A stretch of DNA of 29,486 nucleotides from a virus. This document shows, piece after piece, positions 3,132 to 29,486 of the stretch. The DNA lies in IMG/VR virus record IMGVR_UViG_3300042503_000164, positions 1-29,486 of that record; one strand, written 5' to 3'. A program made the translations under genes and the position numbers. A model generated the notes under the pieces. That model was given only the letters and a program-made list of their open reading frames with translations, did not search any database and was not told where the DNA came from. Every line of letters starts with the position of its first letter. The stretch's first letter is position 1.

Positions 3132-5166
3132 CTACCATCTCCTGCCATCTGGCATCGTTTGTCTGCATCAATCGATACAACTCAAAGTTTGCGTCTTGCA
3201 GCCTACGTCTGCTATATATATCACGAACTGCATAAAAGTCAGCCCTATCTTGTAAAGACGCTTGGGTGTACGCCGCAAAGCCAGGTACTGTGCCGATCTC
3301 CGATATTGTTTCGCTTTGCCCTTCGGACATTCCGCTTTCGGTCTGCGTAGTGTTTTCGTTGGAAGATGCAGCAGGAGGTGGGCCAAGGCTTAGAACCTCA
3401 ACTGCGTTTGCCATAGATACTGGGCTGGTTACCGATATGGTCGCATCCAATGGCAAAACGCTTTGCGCCGAAGATACACTTGGCCCTTGCACGAACGACT
3501 CGCTAAATGCGCTTTCGAAACGCGCTTGCGCTGAGAAGGTATTTGACGAAGACGTATCCTGTACCTCCTGCATACCACTCTCTTGCTGTTGTGTGCTTTC
3601 TTTAACTTCCGAATTGGCTACAGCCAGTGCGGGGGCTTGATTTAATTCAGGTTGCTCAATCACATCTGCGATGGCTAACGCTGGAGTTTGATTTGCCTCC
3701 ACCCGCTCAGTTACTTCTGACACAGTTACGGCAAGCGAAGGTGCTTGTTCTTGCTCTACGCGCTCTGTTGCGTCTGGACCAATTGAATCTAGTGCAGAGG
3801 ATTGTTCAGACTCTACCCGCTCGGATATGTCTGGAGTGGTCACCGACAGCGTAGCGGGTTGTTCTGACTCCGACTGCTCGACTGCATCTTGGTCGGATGC
3901 GATCAGCACAGGGGATTGTTCTAATTCCAGCCGCTCAACTACGTCTGGTCCGGTTATGTTCAACGCCGGGTTTTGATCTATTTCCAGCCGCTCGGCTGCG
4001 TCTGATTCAATTGCTTCAAACGTATCAACTTGTTCCGACTGCTCGGTTATGTCAGAGACAGTTGCCTCAAGCGCATCGTCTTGGCTTATTTCCGACTGCT
4101 GGGCAGCGTCTAGATCGTCTGCATTGAACGCATCAACTTGGTCAGATTTGTCCACTGCTTCTGGCTCATCAACATCCATTGCAGTTGATTGTTCTGATTC
4201 TGATCTTTCGGTTGCGTCTGTGCCAGTTGCGGCCAGAGCAGCAACCTGATCTGGATCAAGGCGCTCAACCGTTTCGACCTCGCGCACACTAGCCTCCACA
4301 TCCGCCTCCGGCTCGTCAGCGATTGTTGCAACCTCCTCGGTTTCCGCGACTTCCTCCACCTGCTCAACTGCGACGGCTACTTCACTCATCTCCTGCGCTT
4401 GCTCCAGTGCATCTGTGGCTGTATCTTGCACCTCTTCTATTTGCTCTGTCGTAAGCTCCGCGCTCTGCTCAACGGCTTCGGCAATTGCAGCCACAGGGTC
4501 TGGAATGGTTTCAATACTGGCTGGTGGGCAGCTTGGGTCCATAGGTGTCAGATTGCAGTCAACGGTCACGATAGGCGTTGGTGCAACCCATGACAAAATG
4601 CCAGATTGGTTCTGAAGATATTGCGCGTTTCGACCGTAGAAAAGCGGAATGTTGTCTTCAGGGTTTGGGCCTGTGATGCCTGCGGTGAAATCGCGCCAAC
4701 CTGAGAAACCCAGATTACCGTAATTCAGTTGAATCTTACCGTCCGAAAAAAGACCTATTTCGAAGGTGCTACTGTTATTTGTGCCGTACTCGTTCGTGCC
4801 GTACCAGCCAAATAGGATAGAACTATCGTCGCGGCGGTAATATGGGTTGCCAGTATAGCTGATTAAGTCTGACCAGTAGCCGTATATCGTGTTGCGCTGC
4901 GCCCGATCTAGCGGTTCGCCGTTGCAGCACAGGTTAGCGGCGCTCTGGAAAGACACGAATCCGTTGGATGAAACCCATGCGTCGGTGAACGTCTGCCCCC
5001 AATAGTCGAACTCAAAACCAAGGCTGACACGGGCTGTGTTGTCATCGCCTAAATTAAGAGGCGTCATTGTCGTTGGAGTGCCATTGATCTGCGGTGGTAT
5101 TAAGGCAGGCTCATAGACTTGCGCACGAACAGGCGTTGCACAAGTCAGCAGGACAACTACCCGCAA
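3115..5166 (-). CDS. Secreted NIDO-like protein with acidic repeats
   Basis: Large exported protein of unknown role, about 683 residues from TTG 5166. Signal segment LLRVVVLLTCATPVRA with cleavage before QVYEPAL. Next, about residues 40-168, a domain resembling the NIDO (nidogen extracellular) fold: FEFDYWGQTFTDAWVSSNG, YGYWSDL, IGLFSDGKIQLNYGN, FTAGITG. Then a two-cysteine segment (VDCNLTPMDPSC), about 200 residues of imperfect 18-20-residue acidic repeats (DATERVEQEQAPSLAV type), a Ser/Gln-rich stretch, and a basic helical end (RDIYSRRRLQD to MVDEQYK). The start is unclear: no ATG; TTG at 5238 overlaps upstream by 62 bases; ATT at 5181 would give the most typical signal peptide. Possibly an envelope or virion adhesin. 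Confidence 0.85.
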   Translation of the reverse strand: MRVVVLLTCATPVRAQVYEPALIPPQINGTPTTMTPLNLGDDNTARVSLGFEFDYWGQTFTDAWVSSNGFVSFQSAANLCCNGEPLDRAQRNTIYGYWSDLISYTGNPYYRRDDSSILFGWYGTNEYGTNNSSTFEIGLFSDGKIQLNYGNLGFSGWRDFTAGITGPNPEDNIPLFYGRNAQYLQNQSGILSWVAPTPIVTVDCNLTPMDPSCPPASIETIPDPVAAIAEAVEQSAELTTEQIEEVQDTATDALEQAQEMSEVAVAVEQVEEVAETEEVATIADEPEADVEASVREVETVERLDPDQVAALAATGTDATERSESEQSTAMDVDEPEAVDKSDQVDAFNADDLDAAQQSEISQDDALEATVSDITEQSEQVDTFEAIESDAAERLEIDQNPALNITGPDVVERLELEQSPVLIASDQDAVEQSESEQPATLSVTTPDISERVESEQSSALDSIGPDATERVEQEQAPSLAVTVSEVTERVEANQTPALAIADVIEQPELNQAPALAVANSEVKESTQQQESGMQEVQDTSSSNTFSAQARFESAFSESFVQGPSVSSAQSVLPLDATISVTSPVSMANAVEVLSLGPPPAASSNENTTQTESGMSEGQSETISEIGTVPGFAAYTQASLQDRADFYAVRDIYSRRRLQDANFELYRLMQTNDARWQEMVDEQYK
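3604..4221 (-). repeat. Acidic 18-20-aa repeat array in NIDO-like gene
   Basis: About 11-12 imperfect units with the pattern D-x-x-E-R-x-E-x-(E/N)-Q-x-P-A-L-x-V, for example TERVEQEQAPSLAVTVSE followed by VTERVEANQTPALAIA. Units differ in sequence and slightly in length, so the array is old or diversified. It likely forms an extended acidic stalk between the N-terminal domain and the C-terminal helix. Confidence 0.75.
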
Positions 5167-17387: not shown

Positions 17388-17977
17388 TAGAAGGACTCCC
17401 GTAAATTCAGCGAGAGGTTATATACATAACCCGCCTCAACTGAAAGCGTTGGCTCCTCTACCAGATACATTAGGCAAAACGGATTCTTGTATTCGATTGC
17501 AGCGTTATCAGATGGCGATACGCGGATAGATGGCTCAAAGGTTAGTGTTGCCACGCCAGACCCATTAACCGTTACGTTTTCAGTCAACTGCAAAAGCTGA
17601 TTATTAATGGTGACGAACTGACCAGCCACTAGAGGAGTAGTAGATGGTGTCCAGCCGTCTGTGTTAAGCTGTCGGCCTGTCTGGTTAGCACCATTCACCG
17701 AAGGTGTGGCAGATGATGTGGACTGCGCAGTCGGGTCAACTGGTATCTGGAAATCATTAGCACCGCCACGGGATTTAGCCGTAAACGCCCTCCAAGCATT
17801 GATGTTGGTCGTACCTACAATTGGTGGCAGAGTAATTTGGCATTCCCACCAACCTCGACCTGACGCTATGGTCTGACGCCGACCCGTCCAATCAGATACG
17901 TTGGTCTGCGCTGGCATAACCAGCCGCCAAGACATACCCTGCGCCTTGGGTGTTGAGGGATATGTGATTGTCGCCAT
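17387..17977 (-). CDS. Distal/minor tail protein, 196 aa
   Basis: Beta-rich protein starting MATITYPSTPKAQGMSWRLV, with DWTGRRQTIASGRGWWECQI and WRAFTAKSRGGANDFQIPVD, then VAGQFVTINNQLLQLTENV and a C-terminal YVYNLSLNLRESF. It is encoded directly after the tape measure gene, the usual site of the distal tail protein that closes the tube at the tip. Its C-terminal strands about membrane-distal phage parts resemble minor tail proteins in other alphaproteobacterial phages. Assignment rests on position and general pattern. The TAATG junction couples it to the tape measure gene. Confidence 0.78.
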   Translation of the reverse strand: MATITYPSTPKAQGMSWRLVMPAQTNVSDWTGRRQTIASGRGWWECQITLPPIVGTTNINAWRAFTAKSRGGANDFQIPVDPTAQSTSSATPSVNGANQTGRQLNTDGWTPSTTPLVAGQFVTINNQLLQLTENVTVNGSGVATLTFEPSIRVSPSDNAAIEYKNPFCLMYLVEEPTLSVEAGYVYNLSLNLRESF

Positions 17978-20181
17978 TACTGCATAACTCCACCAAGGCG
18001 CGGTCTGCGCAGCCCTGCAATTGTCCGTGACTCTGCCGCAGCGATGATGGCTGGAGCAGCCTCAAGGATGCCTTGTTGCACTTGAGCGCGAACTGCTGCT
18101 GGATCGCTTGAGCCACGGGCGTCTACGCTGATGTTGAAGCTGCTTCCGCCGCCACCACCACGCATGTTGTGGTTTGGAATAATTGTGCCATTGCCGCTAG
18201 GAACAAATAGTTCTGGGCCGCGTTCGCCGACCATATATGGGGTGTTATTGGCTACAGAGCCACCTCGCGCCCTTAATGTAAGTGGCCTAAAATTGCCTGG
18301 GCTACTCATACCGATGTTCCCAAAGCCGCTGGCAGAACTAGGTGCAGCAGTTGCTCCAGCACCTAGCGCACCACTAATAATGCCAACAATCTTTTGTACA
18401 ACAAACAGCTTCCACAACTGGTCAATAACTGCGCCAATAATGCTTTTCATGGATTCCTTAAACGACATAGCACCAGTTATCATGCCCTTAAATGAGTCTG
18501 ATACAGCCATACCAATTGATTCAAATGAGTTCTTTATTTCCTCATTCTTTTCTCTGATTCTGGCATCATCCATTGCTTTGCTTAATCTGCCAATAGCCTC
18601 CCTAGCAGCATCAGCGCCCACTCCAGCGGCCTCGCCAGTTTCCGCGCTTAGTGCATCAAGCACAGCCTTTGCCGCAGCCTGGTCCTGCTCAAACTGCGTC
18701 ATGCCAGTATGAAGGTTTTCATACTTCTTAATAAGGGTATCTATCGGGCCAGTAGCAGTAGCCTTGATTGCATTCATAAAGCCGATCTGAAGATCGCCCG
18801 TCATTTTTTCACTTTTTTGAATGTTTTCGTATTGCGCTTCTAGGTCACGAAGTTTGCTTATGTAATCTGGCAGCGCCTTTGTCGTTAGGTCGTTTGTTGA
18901 CTTTTTAAACTTCTCAACATTGTCATTGGCTTCTTTGAACTGCTTCAAATAATCTTCTGCCGGATTCTTTGCGTCACCAAATGCATCTGTAACAGCGACA
19001 AGTTTGGTTTCAAATTCGGCTAAAGTTAAATTGCCAGCTTCAAACTCTGCGATAATAGCTTTTTGAGCAGCGCGCAGTTTATCAGTCTCAGAAACAACCT
19101 TTGGCTTTCGCTCCCTTTTGTTGTCTGGCTTTAAAAGTCCTGCGGCAACAGAACCCTGATTAACTGATTGCTCCAGCTTTGGAATTAAGGCTTCCAACGC
19201 CGCTCCAGACGTTCCACTAAGCAGGGCTTGCTGCAACTCTGTCTTTTTAAACCTAGTACCTCTAAGGTCTAACTTATCAATTCTTCGGAAAAGTTTCTCA
19301 ATTTCCTTATCAGCGCCAGCCACGCCTTTTTGAGCGTTTGCCATTGCCTTTTCAACGTCAGTTGAAAACTTAACAAGATCAGCCCTGTTTTTGTCAATCT
19401 CATCCATACCGCCAGTATAACCCGGTAATATACCACCAGCCGACCCCAAGCCCTCTGAGTAAAACCCAGTCGCAATTAGACCAAGTTTGTCTGTTAAGGT
19501 GTTTAAAAAACCAACCCTTTGGATTTGGTTGTTCAGCGAAGTTAACGATGCCTTTTGCTCCGCTGCCGTTGCTTTTAGATTTTCAATCTTAGCAAGCGTG
19601 TTAAGGCGCGTTTCAAGTGTGTTACTTTTTATCTTTCCGCTCGTCATGTCGAACATGTCGCCAAGGGCAGACTGCCCTGAACTTAATGCAGAAGAAGCAA
19701 TTTCCAGTTGGGCGGCAGCTTTTTCACCAGCCATTAGCTTTTCTACAAAGAAGCTAACAGCCATTGCTGCGCCAATGACAAGAGCACCCCAAGGCCCAGC
19801 AAGGAACGAACCAATCCTACCAGCCACGCCGCCCATCATGGACATGGCGTAGCCAAGTTGGCCTATCTGCTGATTAAACGCCTGTAGTGGACTCGCGCCA
19901 GTTGATACACTGGTTGCAAAGTCATTAAGCTGCATACCAGCTTGCTGGACACCTTGGCGGTGATTACGGATTGCCTTAGAGGCTTCGTCAAGCCCCTTTC
20001 CAGATTTTCTGGCTGCCCCCTCAACTGCGCCCATGCCAGCAGCAAGAGGGCCATTAGCAGCCCTTAGCGCGTCCATTTCCCTGCGAAGACCGTCAACGGC
20101 GGCAGTCAGCTTTTTAAGTTCATTCTGCCCAGTAACCTGAGCGGCAAACAAATACTCAATTTTTTGGTTTTGGGCCGCCAC
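17977..20181 (-). CDS. Tape measure protein
   Basis: 734 residues. GTG start with AAAGG 7 bases upstream. The N-terminus (IEYLFAAQVTGQNELKKLTAAVDGLRREM) and the following helical region are standard for tape measures, followed by a hydrophobic segment (about 122-150, GSFLAGPWGALVIGAAMAVSFF), long coiled coils and another hydrophobic stretch (LWKLFVVQKIVGIISGALGAG). The C-terminal SVANNTPYMVGERGPELFVP is a tail tape measure signature. The protein sets tail length, is packed in the tube lumen and later aids DNA passage. By the usual relation of about 1.5 angstrom per residue, the tail should be near 110 nm. It follows the frameshifted chaperone gene, overlapping its extension by 26 bases. Confidence 0.95.
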   Translation of the reverse strand: MAAQNQKIEYLFAAQVTGQNELKKLTAAVDGLRREMDALRAANGPLAAGMGAVEGAARKSGKGLDEASKAIRNHRQGVQQAGMQLNDFATSVSTGASPLQAFNQQIGQLGYAMSMMGGVAGRIGSFLAGPWGALVIGAAMAVSFFVEKLMAGEKAAAQLEIASSALSSGQSALGDMFDMTSGKIKSNTLETRLNTLAKIENLKATAAEQKASLTSLNNQIQRVGFLNTLTDKLGLIATGFYSEGLGSAGGILPGYTGGMDEIDKNRADLVKFSTDVEKAMANAQKGVAGADKEIEKLFRRIDKLDLRGTRFKKTELQQALLSGTSGAALEALIPKLEQSVNQGSVAAGLLKPDNKRERKPKVVSETDKLRAAQKAIIAEFEAGNLTLAEFETKLVAVTDAFGDAKNPAEDYLKQFKEANDNVEKFKKSTNDLTTKALPDYISKLRDLEAQYENIQKSEKMTGDLQIGFMNAIKATATGPIDTLIKKYENLHTGMTQFEQDQAAAKAVLDALSAETGEAAGVGADAAREAIGRLSKAMDDARIREKNEEIKNSFESIGMAVSDSFKGMITGAMSFKESMKSIIGAVIDQLWKLFVVQKIVGIISGALGAGATAAPSSASGFGNIGMSSPGNFRPLTLRARGGSVANNTPYMVGERGPELFVPSGNGTIIPNHNMRGGGGGSSFNISVDARGSSDPAAVRAQVQQGILEAAPAIIAAAESRTIAGLRRPRLGGVMQ

Positions 20182-20323
20182 GCTTTTGCCTTTCTTCGCT
20201 CAGGTTAAAATAAGCGACCCATTCATTATACTCTTCAATTGAAACAAGTTCAATCTCTGCAATGGTTTTGCCGAGCCGATCCGCTAGGGTAATTAAATTA
20301 TACCTAAACGGATCGTCCCTTAG
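20156..20323 (-). CDS. Frameshift extension (T domain) of tail chaperone
   Basis: Read in the -1 frame after the slippery site at 20323-20329. It has no start of its own and adds 55 residues, LRDDPFRYNLITLADRLG, KTIAEIELVSIEEYNEWVAYF, then NLSEERQKRGGPKPKN, to the 112-residue G protein, giving about 167 residues. The EYNEWVAYF block (E-x-x-x-W-x-A-Y-F) is the typical end of GT-type tail chaperones. The stop at 20156-20158 lies inside the tape measure gene, as usual for this junction. The long form is expected to bind tape measure and tail tube subunits during assembly. Confidence 0.88.
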   Translation of the reverse strand, partial: LRDDPFRYNLITLADRLGKTIAEIELVSIEEYNEWVAYFNLSEERQKRGGPKPKN

Positions 20324-20329
20324 TTTTTT
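20277..20329 (-). promoter_or_regulatory. -1 ribosomal frameshift site with stem-loop
   Basis: The heptamer A-AAA-AAC (20323-20329) stands in the correct phase for tandem slippage and is followed at once by the zero-frame TAA stop. Seven bases downstream, CGATCCG (20309-20315 on the coding strand) pairs perfectly with CGGATCG (20277-20283); the enclosed 25 bases can add a short UAGG/CCUA helix. Slippery site, spacer and stimulator all match known -1 frameshift signals. Confidence 0.9.
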
Positions 20330-20658
20330 TCCTGCTCCTCAACGCTTTCACCGCTCATAAATGCAGCGGCAACCGTCGAAATCACAGACACTTCTTCGCG
20401 CATTAGAACAGCTTTGTCCTCAAGCGTAAATAGCTTTTCACCCTGACCATTTTCAGCTTTAAGAATGATAAGGTCAACCATTGCATCAAATGATGTGTCG
20501 CTCAGAAACTTAGGATGCTTGCGCTGAATGCGGTTCAGTTCACCAGCAAGCAGAGGGCCGTAATAGACCTTCTCTGGCTTGCCCTCATCACCCCACTCTG
20601 CAACGTCAATGTGACGCTTATTCGATGTTCGCTCTGCAATACGCTTGGCAATACTCAT
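20320..20658 (-). CDS. Tail assembly chaperone, G form
   Basis: 112 residues ending at the TAA just after the slippery heptamer. It starts MSIAKRIAERTSNKRHIDV and has YYGPLLAGELNRIQRKHPKF, then FDAMVDLIILKAENGQG and LFTLEDKAVLMREEVSVIS, a helical pattern typical of lambda G-like chaperones encoded between tail tube and tape measure. It ends with an acidic stretch (ESVEEQEKN). An AAGGAT site precedes the ATG. Most ribosomes should yield this short form and a minority the GT fusion, the ratio being important for tail assembly in lambda. The protein is not expected in the finished virion. Confidence 0.88.
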   Translation of the reverse strand: MSIAKRIAERTSNKRHIDVAEWGDEGKPEKVYYGPLLAGELNRIQRKHPKFLSDTSFDAMVDLIILKAENGQGEKLFTLEDKAVLMREEVSVISTVAAAFMSGESVEEQEKN

Positions 20659-20674
20659 ATTAATATCCTTCTAA

Positions 20675-21067
20675 TTATACAGCCGCGCTGGTCAAAGCCC
20701 CTGTTCCTTGAACAGTGATAGTGGATTCTACCATACCATCGAAGCTGCCTGTGATGGTCTTGCCAGTAACAATGGCTTGACCTGTGTAATAAACGTCAGT
20801 GGAAACTGCACCTTCTGGGTAAAAGCGGATAGCCACTTCAGCGCCAGGGATTAATGCGCCTTGGCCCGTGGTGTCTGTTTCGTCCCAGAACACATCAACC
20901 GAACCAGACCAACCTTTCAAAGTAGTCTTAAACGTGCGATAGCTATCGCCCATTGAAGTATCTTCAACAGTATCCGCAGTTTCCTCAACCGAGTACGAAC
21001 GAATTTCAAGCACGTTGTTGGTCGAGCCAACGCGAACTGTGCCTTCTGAACCAGTATGGGTAGCCAT
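20675..21067 (-). CDS. Major tail tube protein, copy 2
   Basis: 130 residues, beta-rich, starting MATHTGSEGTVRVGST. It contains RSYSVEETADTVEDTSMGDS, FKTTLKGWSGSVDVFWDETD, and TGKTITGSFDGMVESTITVQ. The length and pattern fit short tail tube proteins of siphoviruses (phage tail tube fold). It is about three quarters identical to the product of the gene 9 bases upstream, so the two form a tandem duplication. The differences cluster at residues 11-20 and in the segment ALIPGAEVAIRFYPEGAVS. An AAGGAT site precedes the start. Both copies look intact, so both may be in the tail. Confidence 0.88.
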   Translation of the reverse strand: MATHTGSEGTVRVGSTNNVLEIRSYSVEETADTVEDTSMGDSYRTFKTTLKGWSGSVDVFWDETDTTGQGALIPGAEVAIRFYPEGAVSTDVYYTGQAIVTGKTITGSFDGMVESTITVQGTGALTSAAV

Positions 21068-21076
21068 GTCTTATCC

Positions 21077-21475
21077 TTACGCCAGTGTTGCTTCAGTCAA
21101 AGCACCAGTGCCTTGAAGCGTGATTGTCGATTCCACCATGCCGTCAAAGCTGCCCGTGATGGTCTTTCCTGTCACAGTCGCTGTTCCGGTATAATACTTT
21201 TCAGACACGCCAGCCGACGCACCTTCTGGAAATACGCTGATCGTGACCTGAGCACCCACTACAAGAGCAACCTGACCGTTTGTGTCAGTCTCATCCCAGA
21301 ATACGTCAACAGAGCCAGACCAGCCCTTCAGAGTCGTTTTAAAGCTACGATAGCTATCACCCATCGAAGTATCTTCAACAGTGTCAGCGGTTTCTTCCAA
21401 AGAGTAGGAGCGAATCTCTGCGATGGTGTTCGCACCAACTTTAAGCGTTCCCTCTGAACCAGTATGCGTAGCCAT
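21077..21475 (-). CDS. Major tail tube protein, copy 1
   Basis: 132 residues, paralogous to the downstream copy: MATHTGSEGTLKVGANTIAE, RSYSLEETADTVEDTSMGDS, FKTTLKGWSGSVDVFWDETD, then VVGAQVTISVFPEGASAGVS and GSFDGMVESTITLQ. It should polymerise into the tail tube around the tape measure. The ATG overlaps the stop of the 48-residue gene (TAATG). The two copies keep the same strands but differ in a loop region and at the C-terminus (EATLA against SAAV), which suggests divergence rather than recent copying. Which copy dominates in the virion cannot be told from sequence. Confidence 0.88.
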   Translation of the reverse strand: MATHTGSEGTLKVGANTIAEIRSYSLEETADTVEDTSMGDSYRSFKTTLKGWSGSVDVFWDETDTNGQVALVVGAQVTISVFPEGASAGVSEKYYTGTATVTGKTITGSFDGMVESTITLQGTGALTEATLA

Positions 21476-21621
21476 TATTCAGACTCCTCGACTTTCTCTG
21501 CTTGAACCTTTGGCTTTGCAGCCTTCTTTACATCCCAACCCTTAGATTGGTAATTTTCCAGATCAACCTCACAAGCGAGTATTTCATCGCCTTGGGCGTT
21601 GTAAATTTTGACCATCTTCAT
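21475..21621 (-). CDS. Small tail-region protein, 48 aa
   Basis: Short gene joined at both ends: its ATG overlaps the previous stop (ATGA) and its stop overlaps the tail tube start (TAATG). The product is MKMVKIYNAQGDEILACEVD, then LENYQSKGWDVKKA and a Lys/Glu-rich tail (KPKVQAEKVEESE). The YQSKGW segment is typical of small proteins in head-tail regions where a short domain of the form 'Y-x-x-x-G-W' precedes a charged tail. The perfect fit between two structural genes supports a real gene. Function unknown; perhaps assembly or tube decoration. Confidence 0.75.
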   Translation of the reverse strand: MKMVKIYNAQGDEILACEVDLENYQSKGWDVKKAAKPKVQAEKVEESE

Positions 21622-22061
21622 CGCGGTGTCTCCAGATCAGCAAGCAGCGTAACATATTGGACTGCGTAAGACAACCGTGCATTAGCAACTGGCTTCTCGC
21701 CTTCAACATTAATGTCAACGTCAGACTCAGATAGAATACAGCTTTTCACTAATCCTGACAACTGGAAATCAGAACCAATCGCATCCTCAATCAAAACACA
21801 AGCATCATCTATCTGGTTTATGATTGTTGAACTTTGGCCCTTAATAAAAATCTCTACAAAAACTTGCAGTGATCCCATAGATGTTTTTGTTCCTATGGTC
21901 GCCAGAGAATTAGTTTGTCTGTTTGTGTATATCACAGCCGCTGGAAGTTTCTCATCATCCAATGCGTAGGATCGCATCTTGTACACGCGCCCAGAAAAGA
22001 AAGGCAAAGCGCCTATGATGTCAGCGATTCGGTCGCGTATCTGATTATTAATGTGCGACAT
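21618..22061 (-). CDS. Tail terminator-like protein, copy 2
   Basis: 147 residues, MSHINNQIRDRIADIIGALP start, RVYKMRSYALDDEKLPAAVIYT, TSMGSLQVFVEIFIKGQ and FQLSGLVKSCILSESDVDIN. The alternating beta/alpha pattern and position between the head-tail joining gene and the tail tube fit the lambda U-type tail terminator, a ring protein that caps the tube at the head-proximal end. It is a clear paralogue of the gene just upstream. The start overlaps that gene's stop (TAATG). Assignment as terminator comes from gene order and general pattern. Confidence 0.78.
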   Translation of the reverse strand: MSHINNQIRDRIADIIGALPFFSGRVYKMRSYALDDEKLPAAVIYTNRQTNSLATIGTKTSMGSLQVFVEIFIKGQSSTIINQIDDACVLIEDAIGSDFQLSGLVKSCILSESDVDINVEGEKPVANARLSYAVQYVTLLADLETPR

Positions 22062-22576
22062 TAGATAGACACCTGGCAGTTATTGATGGCGGTCATGTAC
22101 TTAACGTCAAAGATCATTTTGCCAGTGCCAATTGCCTTTTCGCCAGTTGTATTGACGCTGAAATCTGATTGCGTCAGCACACAGCTTTTGACAAGTCCTG
22201 AAAAGCTATAGTCAGCTTCGATTGCGCCATTCAATTCAGCGCAGAAAGCCTCTATGTTTTCAAAGATGTCTAGGCTTGATCCTTTGTTAATTACATCAAC
22301 CCTTAATTCAAGGTTGTGTGACAAAGTGCGACTGCCGATAGTGGCAAGGTTCGTTACATCATTTGTCGTGTAAACAATCAGTGCCGGAAGCTGTGCATCA
22401 TCAAGCGCATATTTACGAAACTTGTACAATGTACCTGTGGCAAGCAAACCACCAGCTTGCCTAGTAGCAAGTTCAACATTGAATCGGTCCAGAATTACAA
22501 TCCCGAACCTGTCGTAGATAAAGTTTACCAGCAGGGTAGCAGCATAATCTCTGATCTGTTGCCGAACGTGGCTCAT
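22061..22576 (-). CDS. Tail terminator-like protein, copy 1
   Basis: 171 residues. MSHVRQQIRDYAATLLVNFI, then an insert of about 24 residues absent from the paralogue (DRFGIVILDRFNVELATRQA), then LYKFRKYALDDAQLPALIVYT, LATIGSRTLSHNLELRVDVI and FSGLVKSCVLTQSDFSVNTTGE. The shared blocks (YALDD-x-x-LPA, SGLVKSC) show common descent with the gene at 21618-22061. One copy probably acts as tail terminator; the other may form a second ring, replace it, or act as head-tail connector. It lies one base from the preceding gene. Confidence 0.78.
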   Translation of the reverse strand: MSHVRQQIRDYAATLLVNFIYDRFGIVILDRFNVELATRQAGGLLATGTLYKFRKYALDDAQLPALIVYTTNDVTNLATIGSRTLSHNLELRVDVINKGSSLDIFENIEAFCAELNGAIEADYSFSGLVKSCVLTQSDFSVNTTGEKAIGTGKMIFDVKYMTAINNCQVSI

Positions 22577-27187: not shown

Positions 27188-29044
27188 TCAGCGCCAGTTG
27201 TTAGCGAAACCGCCTCTACGAACAGCCTTTTTGCCAGCCGTTAAAGGATGGGGTTTATCAGCTTCTTCGACATTTGGCAATTTATGCTTTTCCATGTTAG
27301 CATAAAACTTACGGGCTACGCTATCCATATTTACATTTAGGATTGTAAGTGCAGCAATTGCGTACACTCTAACGTCCAAAGCTTCGTTTCTTGTTCGCGT
27401 TTTAACCCAGACACGCGACGGGAAACCCTTGTGGTATTTAATCATCTGCTTTTCAGCAGTTAGCTGCTTAAAATACTCGTCATCCCGCTTGGCAGGGAAG
27501 TGGCAATAGCCTGGGCCAGCCTCATCCATCTTCAGGCGCGAGTAATGGACCTCTTTTGCCGTATCAACACCAATGGGATAAAGCGGAACCCTGCCAATGT
27601 TGTTCTTGGATGGACGCCCGACAATCGGCTTACCCTCGCCGCCAACACCCTTGATGGCAAAAACCCTATGTCCGGCGCGTGTCTTGGCATAGTTGTAAAC
27701 GGCGCGTGTGTGGTGTCCACCAGTATCGATACAGGTGGCACGGACAAGCATTGGCTCACCACATGGATGCTCATAGGTCGCCAGCAAGACCTCATCGACC
27801 TTGTGCCATAGCTGTGTGGTGGACGGGTCGCCGTAAATCACATGGTAATCGATCTGCCAGCTTTCTTCGCCAGCGCCCCAGCCCACAATCTCGACTTCGA
27901 CGCGGTCATCCTGAACGTCGGCTCCAGCCGTCAGCAGCACCACCTCATCAGGGATGCCTTCGTAATCTTCCTTACGCTGCGCCACAGCATAATCATCCAC
28001 ACCCTCGCCAGCATCTTCCCATGTCTCGCCAAGGAAGGTGTTTACAAAGGTCTTGAGCCGCATTGGGTTCTTCCGCGCCGCCAAAAACTCTTCGATTGCG
28101 TCGGATAACACTGACCAAGGCGAGTAAAGTGCGTTCAGATGGAACCCTGCCACACCGTTGAACGGCGCAAAAGCCACCCATTCACCATTGCGAACAGCCC
28201 TGTGCCGATCCGTATCTGACCAGACAGAGCCACATTCAGCGCAGTGATAAGCGCCAGTGCTGGGATTATCGTCAGTCCAAGTCACGTTCGACCACGCCAA
28301 GACCTGTTTGTGTCCGCATTGATGGCACGGAACCATAAACTTGCGCTGGTCGCTTTCGTTATAGGCCGACTCAATTCGGCTCCCACCCTTATTCGTAGGC
28401 GTGGATACTAGAATGATCTTCCTGTTCCAGAACGTAGCGGCTCTTCGTTTAGCAAGAGATATTGGATCGCCCTCTTCACCAGCAGAAGGAGGGTATCGAT
28501 CAACTTCATCGCAAAGAACAACACGAATCGGGCGAGAAGCAAGGGAACTAGGAGAATTAGCGCCGACAAGAGAAAGAGCGCCACCGGGAAAAACTTTATG
28601 AAGCGTAGTGTTGTTTGCATCTTTGGCCTTACTGTCTTTAACCTTGTCTCGAAGGCAAGGGGTTGAGCGTAACAGACCCGCTGTCACACGGTCCTTACTA
28701 AAACTCTGCGCCATATCCACAGTTGGCTGCATCATCAGAATAGGCGCAGGATCGTGGGCCATGTGGTATCCAATGGTGTTCAGCAGCATCTCAGACTTGC
28801 CAAGCTGCGCACCGCACATCACCACAACCTCTTTGACCAGCGGATCAGAGCAAGCATCCATGATACCACGCTGGTATTCAGCCCTTGATGTCACCCATCG
28901 ACCAGGCTCAGAACTGCTTTGCGAATCCAGCCGCCGTTCATGGTCAGCCCACTGCGCCACACTCATACGCGGAGGCGGCGTCATCTGCTTCATGGCCTTG
29001 GCCATTTGCTCCAGTGCGGATTCTCTGGTGGCTTGTTCGATCAT
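27188..29044 (-). CDS. Terminase large subunit, GpA type
   Basis: 618 residues, the DNA-packaging ATPase and nuclease of the lambda GpA family. Walker A GAQLGKS (78-84), Walker B VVLCDE (175-180), VSTPTNKG coupling motif (about 213-220), a zinc-binding set CHQC...CAEC (240, 243, 268, 271), and nuclease aspartates at 377 (AGADVQDD), 441 (CIDTGGHH) and 558 (NEALDVR). The C-terminal basic tail (GKKAVRRGGFANNWR) may contact the portal. It should cut concatemeric DNA at cos or similar sites and pump it into the prohead. ATG overlaps the small subunit's stop (ATGA). Confidence 0.97.
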   Translation of the reverse strand: MIEQATRESALEQMAKAMKQMTPPPRMSVAQWADHERRLDSQSSSEPGRWVTSRAEYQRGIMDACSDPLVKEVVVMCGAQLGKSEMLLNTIGYHMAHDPAPILMMQPTVDMAQSFSKDRVTAGLLRSTPCLRDKVKDSKAKDANNTTLHKVFPGGALSLVGANSPSSLASRPIRVVLCDEVDRYPPSAGEEGDPISLAKRRAATFWNRKIILVSTPTNKGGSRIESAYNESDQRKFMVPCHQCGHKQVLAWSNVTWTDDNPSTGAYHCAECGSVWSDTDRHRAVRNGEWVAFAPFNGVAGFHLNALYSPWSVLSDAIEEFLAARKNPMRLKTFVNTFLGETWEDAGEGVDDYAVAQRKEDYEGIPDEVVLLTAGADVQDDRVEVEIVGWGAGEESWQIDYHVIYGDPSTTQLWHKVDEVLLATYEHPCGEPMLVRATCIDTGGHHTRAVYNYAKTRAGHRVFAIKGVGGEGKPIVGRPSKNNIGRVPLYPIGVDTAKEVHYSRLKMDEAGPGYCHFPAKRDDEYFKQLTAEKQMIKYHKGFPSRVWVKTRTRNEALDVRVYAIAALTILNVNMDSVARKFYANMEKHKLPNVEEADKPHPLTAGKKAVRRGGFANNWR

Positions 29045-29486
29045 ACGATTATCGTCCGGCCCTTTTTAGGGCGTCCGACCTTGCGCTTAGGCTGTTCGAC
29101 CACAGCGGTTTCAACTGTGGCCTCTTCTGACACCGATCCAGTGCGGACAGGATCGATGCTTGGCTGGTAGTTGGACAGTTCTGCCAGTGCCTCGCGGATC
29201 GCATTCTCCAAATGGTCCTTCGCCACCACAACATCTGTTTCCGTGGCTAAAATTGGAGCGACTTTAGTAGGCAGGGCCAAGAACTTGGCTTTACAGGCGT
29301 GAAGGACGCTCTCCCAAGCCGCCACAACATCATTGGTCATGCACAGAGTGCCGCGAATCTTGGCAAGTTCCAGTTCCGCAATTTCGGCTTCGGCACTTAT
29401 CTTTCTGGTACGGGCCTCTTCATATGTTTGAAAAGACACCTCCGGCCTAAGCATACTTTCTGAACCAGCTTTTCTTCTGTTTTCAT
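29041..29486 (-). CDS. Terminase small subunit, Nu1-like, 5' truncated
   Basis: The frame is open to the right edge, so the N-terminal winged-helix DNA-binding domain probably lies outside; an internal ATG at 29454 is not likely to be the real start. Visible: EEARTRKISAEAEIAELELAKIRG, then WESVLHACKAKFLALPTKVA and a helical segment LENAIREALAELSNY, all typical of the oligomerisation part of Nu1-like proteins. The C-terminal tail has KRKVGRPKKGRT, an AT-hook-like motif that could bind the minor groove of AT-rich DNA. It guides the large subunit to the packaging site. Confidence 0.88.
   Translation of the reverse strand, partial: ENRRKAGSESMLRPEVSFQTYEEARTRKISAEAEIAELELAKIRGTLCMTNDVVAAWESVLHACKAKFLALPTKVAPILATETDVVVAKDHLENAIREALAELSNYQPSIDPVRTGSVSEEATVETAVVEQPKRKVGRPKKGRTIIV

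Follow-up and report, generated by a model that had tools for sequence, protein, structure and literature searches.

The gene for a putative tail assembly chaperone (G) in this viral contig record, the whole 29,486 bases of which form the window analysed here, almost certainly ends in a programmed -1 ribosomal frameshift of the lambda G/GT type, to judge from its sequence and those of its relatives. The predicted product is a 167-residue G-T fusion at coordinates 20156-20658, exactly the span that the first-pass annotation had given for a frameshifted tail chaperone. That reading is supported by synteny, by matches of G to phrog_344 and of the fusion to phrog_25875 and phrog_16513, by conservation in 278 of 279 relatives, by purifying selection in the -1 frame only, and by a homologue in which the two parts are fused in frame. 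The features of the locus are:

17977-20181, minus strand: tape measure protein (phrog_1538, E 9e-27)
20156-20323, minus strand: T-like extension in the -1 frame, 55 codons plus TGA (phrog_337 tail protein, E 5e-5)
20277-20315, minus strand: candidate stimulatory hairpin, starting 7 nt downstream of the heptamer
20320-20658, minus strand: G, putative tail assembly chaperone, 112 codons plus TAA (phrog_344, tail assembly chaperone, E 6e-6, covering G residues 1-112)
20323-20329, minus strand: slippery heptamer A_AAA_AAC, adjoining the zero-frame stop TAA at 20320-20322
20335-20339, minus strand: Shine-Dalgarno-like AGGAG, 5 nt upstream of the heptamer
20675-21067, minus strand: tail tube (major tail) protein (phrog_1407, E 4e-15)
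21077-21475, minus strand: second tail tube (major tail) paralogue (phrog_1407, E 5e-17)

G starts at the ATG at 20658, with an AAGGA ribosome-binding sequence at 20670-20666, and its 3' end reads GAG CAG GAA AAA AAC TAA, so that A_AAA_AAC is correctly phased, with 0 nt between it and the stop. Both this ending and the 55 further codons in the -1 frame are as the first-pass annotation had described them: from the last base of the heptamer the frame reads LRDDPFRYNLITLADRLGKTIAEIELVSIEEYNEWVAYFNLSEERQKRGGPKPKN and is open to the TGA at 20158-20156, giving a predicted fusion with the junction peptide ...EQEKNLRDDPFR. The lack of a start codon had been put forward as the reason why gene calling would miss the extension, and it does contain no ATG, GTG or TTG codon. 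The leucine that opens the extension was set aside as evidence, as it is forced by the C of the heptamer together with the TA or TG of the stop and hence is not independent. A_AAA_AAC occurs in the window less often than expected (3 observed, 7 expected), and among 25 in-frame X_XXY_YYZ heptamers in the minus-strand genes only the one in G opens a long extension into otherwise untranslated DNA. We note that an in-frame AAAGGGC lies 15 nt before the stop of the small terminase gene (29041-29454, minus strand); the -1 frame there is that of the overlapping large terminase gene, and the arrangement therefore probably reflects chance plus translational coupling.

The position of the gene, between those for a tail tube protein and the tape measure protein, is that expected of a tail chaperone. 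The genes on the same strand run from the small and large terminase subunits, portal, major head protein and head closure protein to two tail terminator paralogues, two tail tube paralogues, G, the extension, tape measure, distal tail and other tail proteins, and the order tail tube - G - T - tape measure is also seen in Roseobacter, Pelagibacter and Sinorhizobium phages. The putative GTG start of the tape measure gene at 20181 is inside the end of the extension, giving a 26 nt overlap. By analogy, the tail tube protein encoded at 20675-21067 would be the expected partner of the T part. The tandem tail tube genes (20675-21475, minus strand) are 77% identical over their length, with only a single tail tube gene annotated at the corresponding place in the records of the roseophage relatives, and the tandem tail terminator paralogues (21618-22576, minus strand) are 36% identical; this phage thus carries duplicates of two neighbouring tail functions.

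Database matches beyond the phrog families are few. The matches of the fusion to phrog_25875 and phrog_16513, both chaperone families, include a stretch that spans the junction. Nothing usable was found in Pfam or NCBIfam for G, the extension or the fusion, with no Pfam match at all for the window's extension alone; a profile search of solved structures gave a chance-level match only, and no relatives of G were found in bacterial and archaeal genome contigs. A search of plasmids with the fusion yielded one record, a Piscirickettsia phage-like segment (L483, NZ_CP061196.1) with genes for phage morphogenesis, arranged as tail tube - chaperone - next gene. A single 214-residue ORF in it (1408-2052) aligns across the junction (query 39-153) with 34% identity (E 1e-5 against all plasmids, 6e-13 pairwise), so that what is in two reading frames here is one protein there. 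The C-terminal part of the ORF matches the Pfam family Minor tail protein T (PF06223, Phage_tail_T) with an E-value of 1.6e-18, and the ORF is a natural in-frame fusion of G-like and T-like domains. It is through this protein, and not through a direct Pfam match, that the extension is linked to the T family; the LADRLGKT...EYNEWVAYF block common to the window and the Piscirickettsia protein covers only the beginning of the Pfam Minor tail protein T domain.

Relatives were collected in six scans of viral contigs, seeded with the window's G alone, a G alignment, the divergent relative L075, a Roseobacter phage G and two Pelagibacter phage Gs, to which seven annotated phage records were added. 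This set contains 279 sequences that are distinct over 400 bases around the stop and that fall into four main groups and one single-sequence group. All except one combine a slippery heptamer (A_AAA_AAC, A_AAA_AAG or G_GGA_AAC), placed 0 or 3 nt ahead of the stop, with an open -1 extension, which in all 278 is about 45-60 codons long and always contains tryptophan; the zero-frame stop codon itself varies (TAA, TGA or TAG). AAAAAAC is directly before the stop in 84 of 87 sequences in the window's group, in all 66 of the Roseobacter group and in all 64 of the HTVC026P group; AAAAAAG is present in all 61 of the HTVC111P group, and the Sinorhizobium phage (n=1) has AAAAAAC three bases before the stop. 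Of the remaining three sequences in the window's group, GGGAAAC stands three bases ahead of the stop in two; the third, L450 (IMGVR_UViG_3300008107_001462), carries a tandem duplication of 26 nt covering the heptamer. We considered L450 as a counter-example and rejected it, since the duplication is absent in the near-identical L160 and L451; it is presumably an assembly artefact or a recent mutation. Homologues with a closed -1 frame, which the first-pass annotation had named as evidence against a frameshift, were looked for among all 279 sequences, and apart from the L450 duplication there are none. The close relatives L075 and L082 have G_GGA_AAC three bases ahead of the stop (around locus position 3327) together with a different, smaller hairpin, and have kept the extension, suggesting that slip site and stimulator were replaced together.

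The comparative data for selection on the frameshift are, at the level of sequence, decisive. In G from 58 distinct close relatives there are 95 degenerate codons with a majority residue, and the third base is invariant in just three of them, GAA AAA AAC, which are the slippery site. For the extension, the -1 frame gives a pN/pS of 0.23; the other two frames give 1.9 and 1.6 and also contain stops. Third-position variation follows the -1 frame. Where the third base of a degenerate extension codon falls within the 7-bp stem core, it is invariant in 4 of 4 cases, as against 3 of 37 elsewhere in the extension. The pN/pS pattern together with the invariant synonymous sites points to selection on the -1-frame protein and to selection on the slip site and the stem as RNA.

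The first-pass annotation had reported a perfect 7-bp stem 7 bases beyond the heptamer, and this is borne out, with the full hairpin being larger. The spacer is TAAGGGA (7 nt), the stem core is CGATCCG...CGGATCG, and the structure comprises a lower helix of 9 bp (20315-20307 with 20285-20277) and an upper helix of 4 bp (20304-20301 with 20291-20288). Its predicted energy is -22.1 kcal/mol (z -4.49), and none of 200 dinucleotide shuffles was equally stable. Among 21 distinct sequences 97.4% of cells are paired, although the covariation is weak: changes are mostly one-sided, a single pair is changed on both sides, and compensatory change is scarce. Support for the stem therefore comes from its energy and the invariant synonymous sites. 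A search of the window against Rfam gave no match. The stem is not conserved outside the window's group, the median z being about -0.4 in groups L083 and L084. Some Shine-Dalgarno-like match is present upstream of the heptamer in 75 of 86 sequences of the window's group; the AGGAG in the window is a possible 5' stimulator of the slip, although it is encoded by Glu-Glu and its conservation is partial. Such an element is absent, as is the stem, in the Pelagibacter-like L084 group (e.g. L250-L329), where all 64 distinct sequences have nine A at the slip site.

A simple explanation of these features is that most ribosomes would translate G and terminate at the TAA adjoining the slippery site, while a minority would stall at the hairpin downstream, with tRNA-Lys and tRNA-Asn on A_AAA_AAC. 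The stalled ribosomes would slip back by one base to AAA_AAA and continue for 55 codons to give the G-T fusion. By analogy with lambda, G would coat the tape measure protein, the T part would recruit subunits of the tail tube, and the slip would fix a G:GT ratio that matters for tail assembly. That slippage takes place at this heptamer, at some particular rate and with a role in assembly, is what we infer, the parts played by G and GT being taken from lambda.

The main rival to a ribosomal slip is slippage of RNA polymerase on the A-run, such that one extra A in some transcripts would give access to the same -1 frame. The window does have a run of seven A, and the nine A of the L084 (HTVC026P) group, in sequences with neither stem nor Shine-Dalgarno-like element, make transcriptional slippage a real possibility in that group. 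For the window, however, we consider it improbable: its A-run is limited to seven, a stem under strong constraint follows at the spacing of a ribosomal site, and the -1 frame is kept both in L075 and L082, where G_GGA_AAC contains only three A, and in 23 relatives of group L083 with a run of six. A related proposal is that the frame change was ancestrally driven by the juxtaposed stop, and in the Pelagibacter-like group also by the run of nine A (which may act through transcriptional slippage), and that the window's lineage acquired its hairpin later. It draws on the observation that the stop adjoins the heptamer in nearly all lineages even as the stop codon varies, while the hairpin comes and goes; we regard it as unlikely.

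Separate production of the extension as a small T protein, by re-initiation at a non-standard start codon after the G stop, is suggested by a TTG at extension codon 13 in many close relatives and by a separate small ORF annotated there in the Sinorhizobium phage record. The window has CTA at codon 13 and lacks any ATG, GTG or TTG in the extension, and re-initiation would leave unexplained both the invariant synonymous sites of the heptamer and the homologue with the two halves fused in frame; it is very improbable. Short open frames are common in the window, and a gene that is A-rich at its end might by chance be followed by an open frame. Given the 278 of 279 conservation, the frame-specific purifying selection and the invariant slippery codons, this has a negligible likelihood, and a programmed -1 ribosomal frameshift is the reading that we favour.

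The description of the extension as unannotated also holds for relatives. Six of the seven annotated records omit it, namely those of roseophages CRP-823, CRP-406 and CRP-811 and three pelagiphage records, and the seventh, that of the Sinorhizobium phage, makes its end a separate hypothetical protein. The word "frameshift" was not found in the available portion of the roseophage family paper (PMC12629253). What the comparison confirms, for a large group of aquatic phages that have not been cultured, is that the tail chaperone has a hidden C-terminal half; adding the extension would correct the six Roseobacter and Pelagibacter phage records that omit it. Relatives also differ naturally in heptamer, hairpin and A-run length, and these exchanges could be compared to learn which stimulators determine the G:GT ratio.

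The lambda heptamer is G_GGA_AAG. The locus described here shares with lambda gpG/gpGT the order tail tube - G - T - tape measure, the heptamer at the end of G, the -1 direction and a C-terminal extension that is probably related to the T family (here via the fused homologue), and differs in using A_AAA_AAC, in having the stop directly after the heptamer and a clear downstream hairpin, and in its short extension of 55 codons. According to PMC5009743 (citing Levin 1993, Xu 2004, 2013), the G/GT frameshift was recognised in lambda long ago and is conserved across a wide range of long-tailed phages, and the frameshift here appears to be of this classic kind (Xu, Hendrix and Duda 2004) rather than new biology. 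The same review describes A_AAA_AAC as less shift-prone than A_AAA_AAG in E. coli, which counts against a slip at this heptamer. It also describes a haloarchaeal siphovirus, HCTV-2, which has the same A_AAA_AAC at the same G-T gene pair but an archaeal host. A homologous G is present in the CRP-822-type roseophages (PMC12629253), with ~44% identity, and in the Pelagibacter phages HTVC026P, HTVC111P and HTVC202P, with 35-39% identity; in all of these the site is of the same kind and the extension has 50-60 codons. The stem that is clear in the window is absent or weak in the CRP-822-type roseophages, HTVC026P and HTVC202P, and HTVC111P has A_AAA_AAG in place of the A_AAA_AAC of the window.
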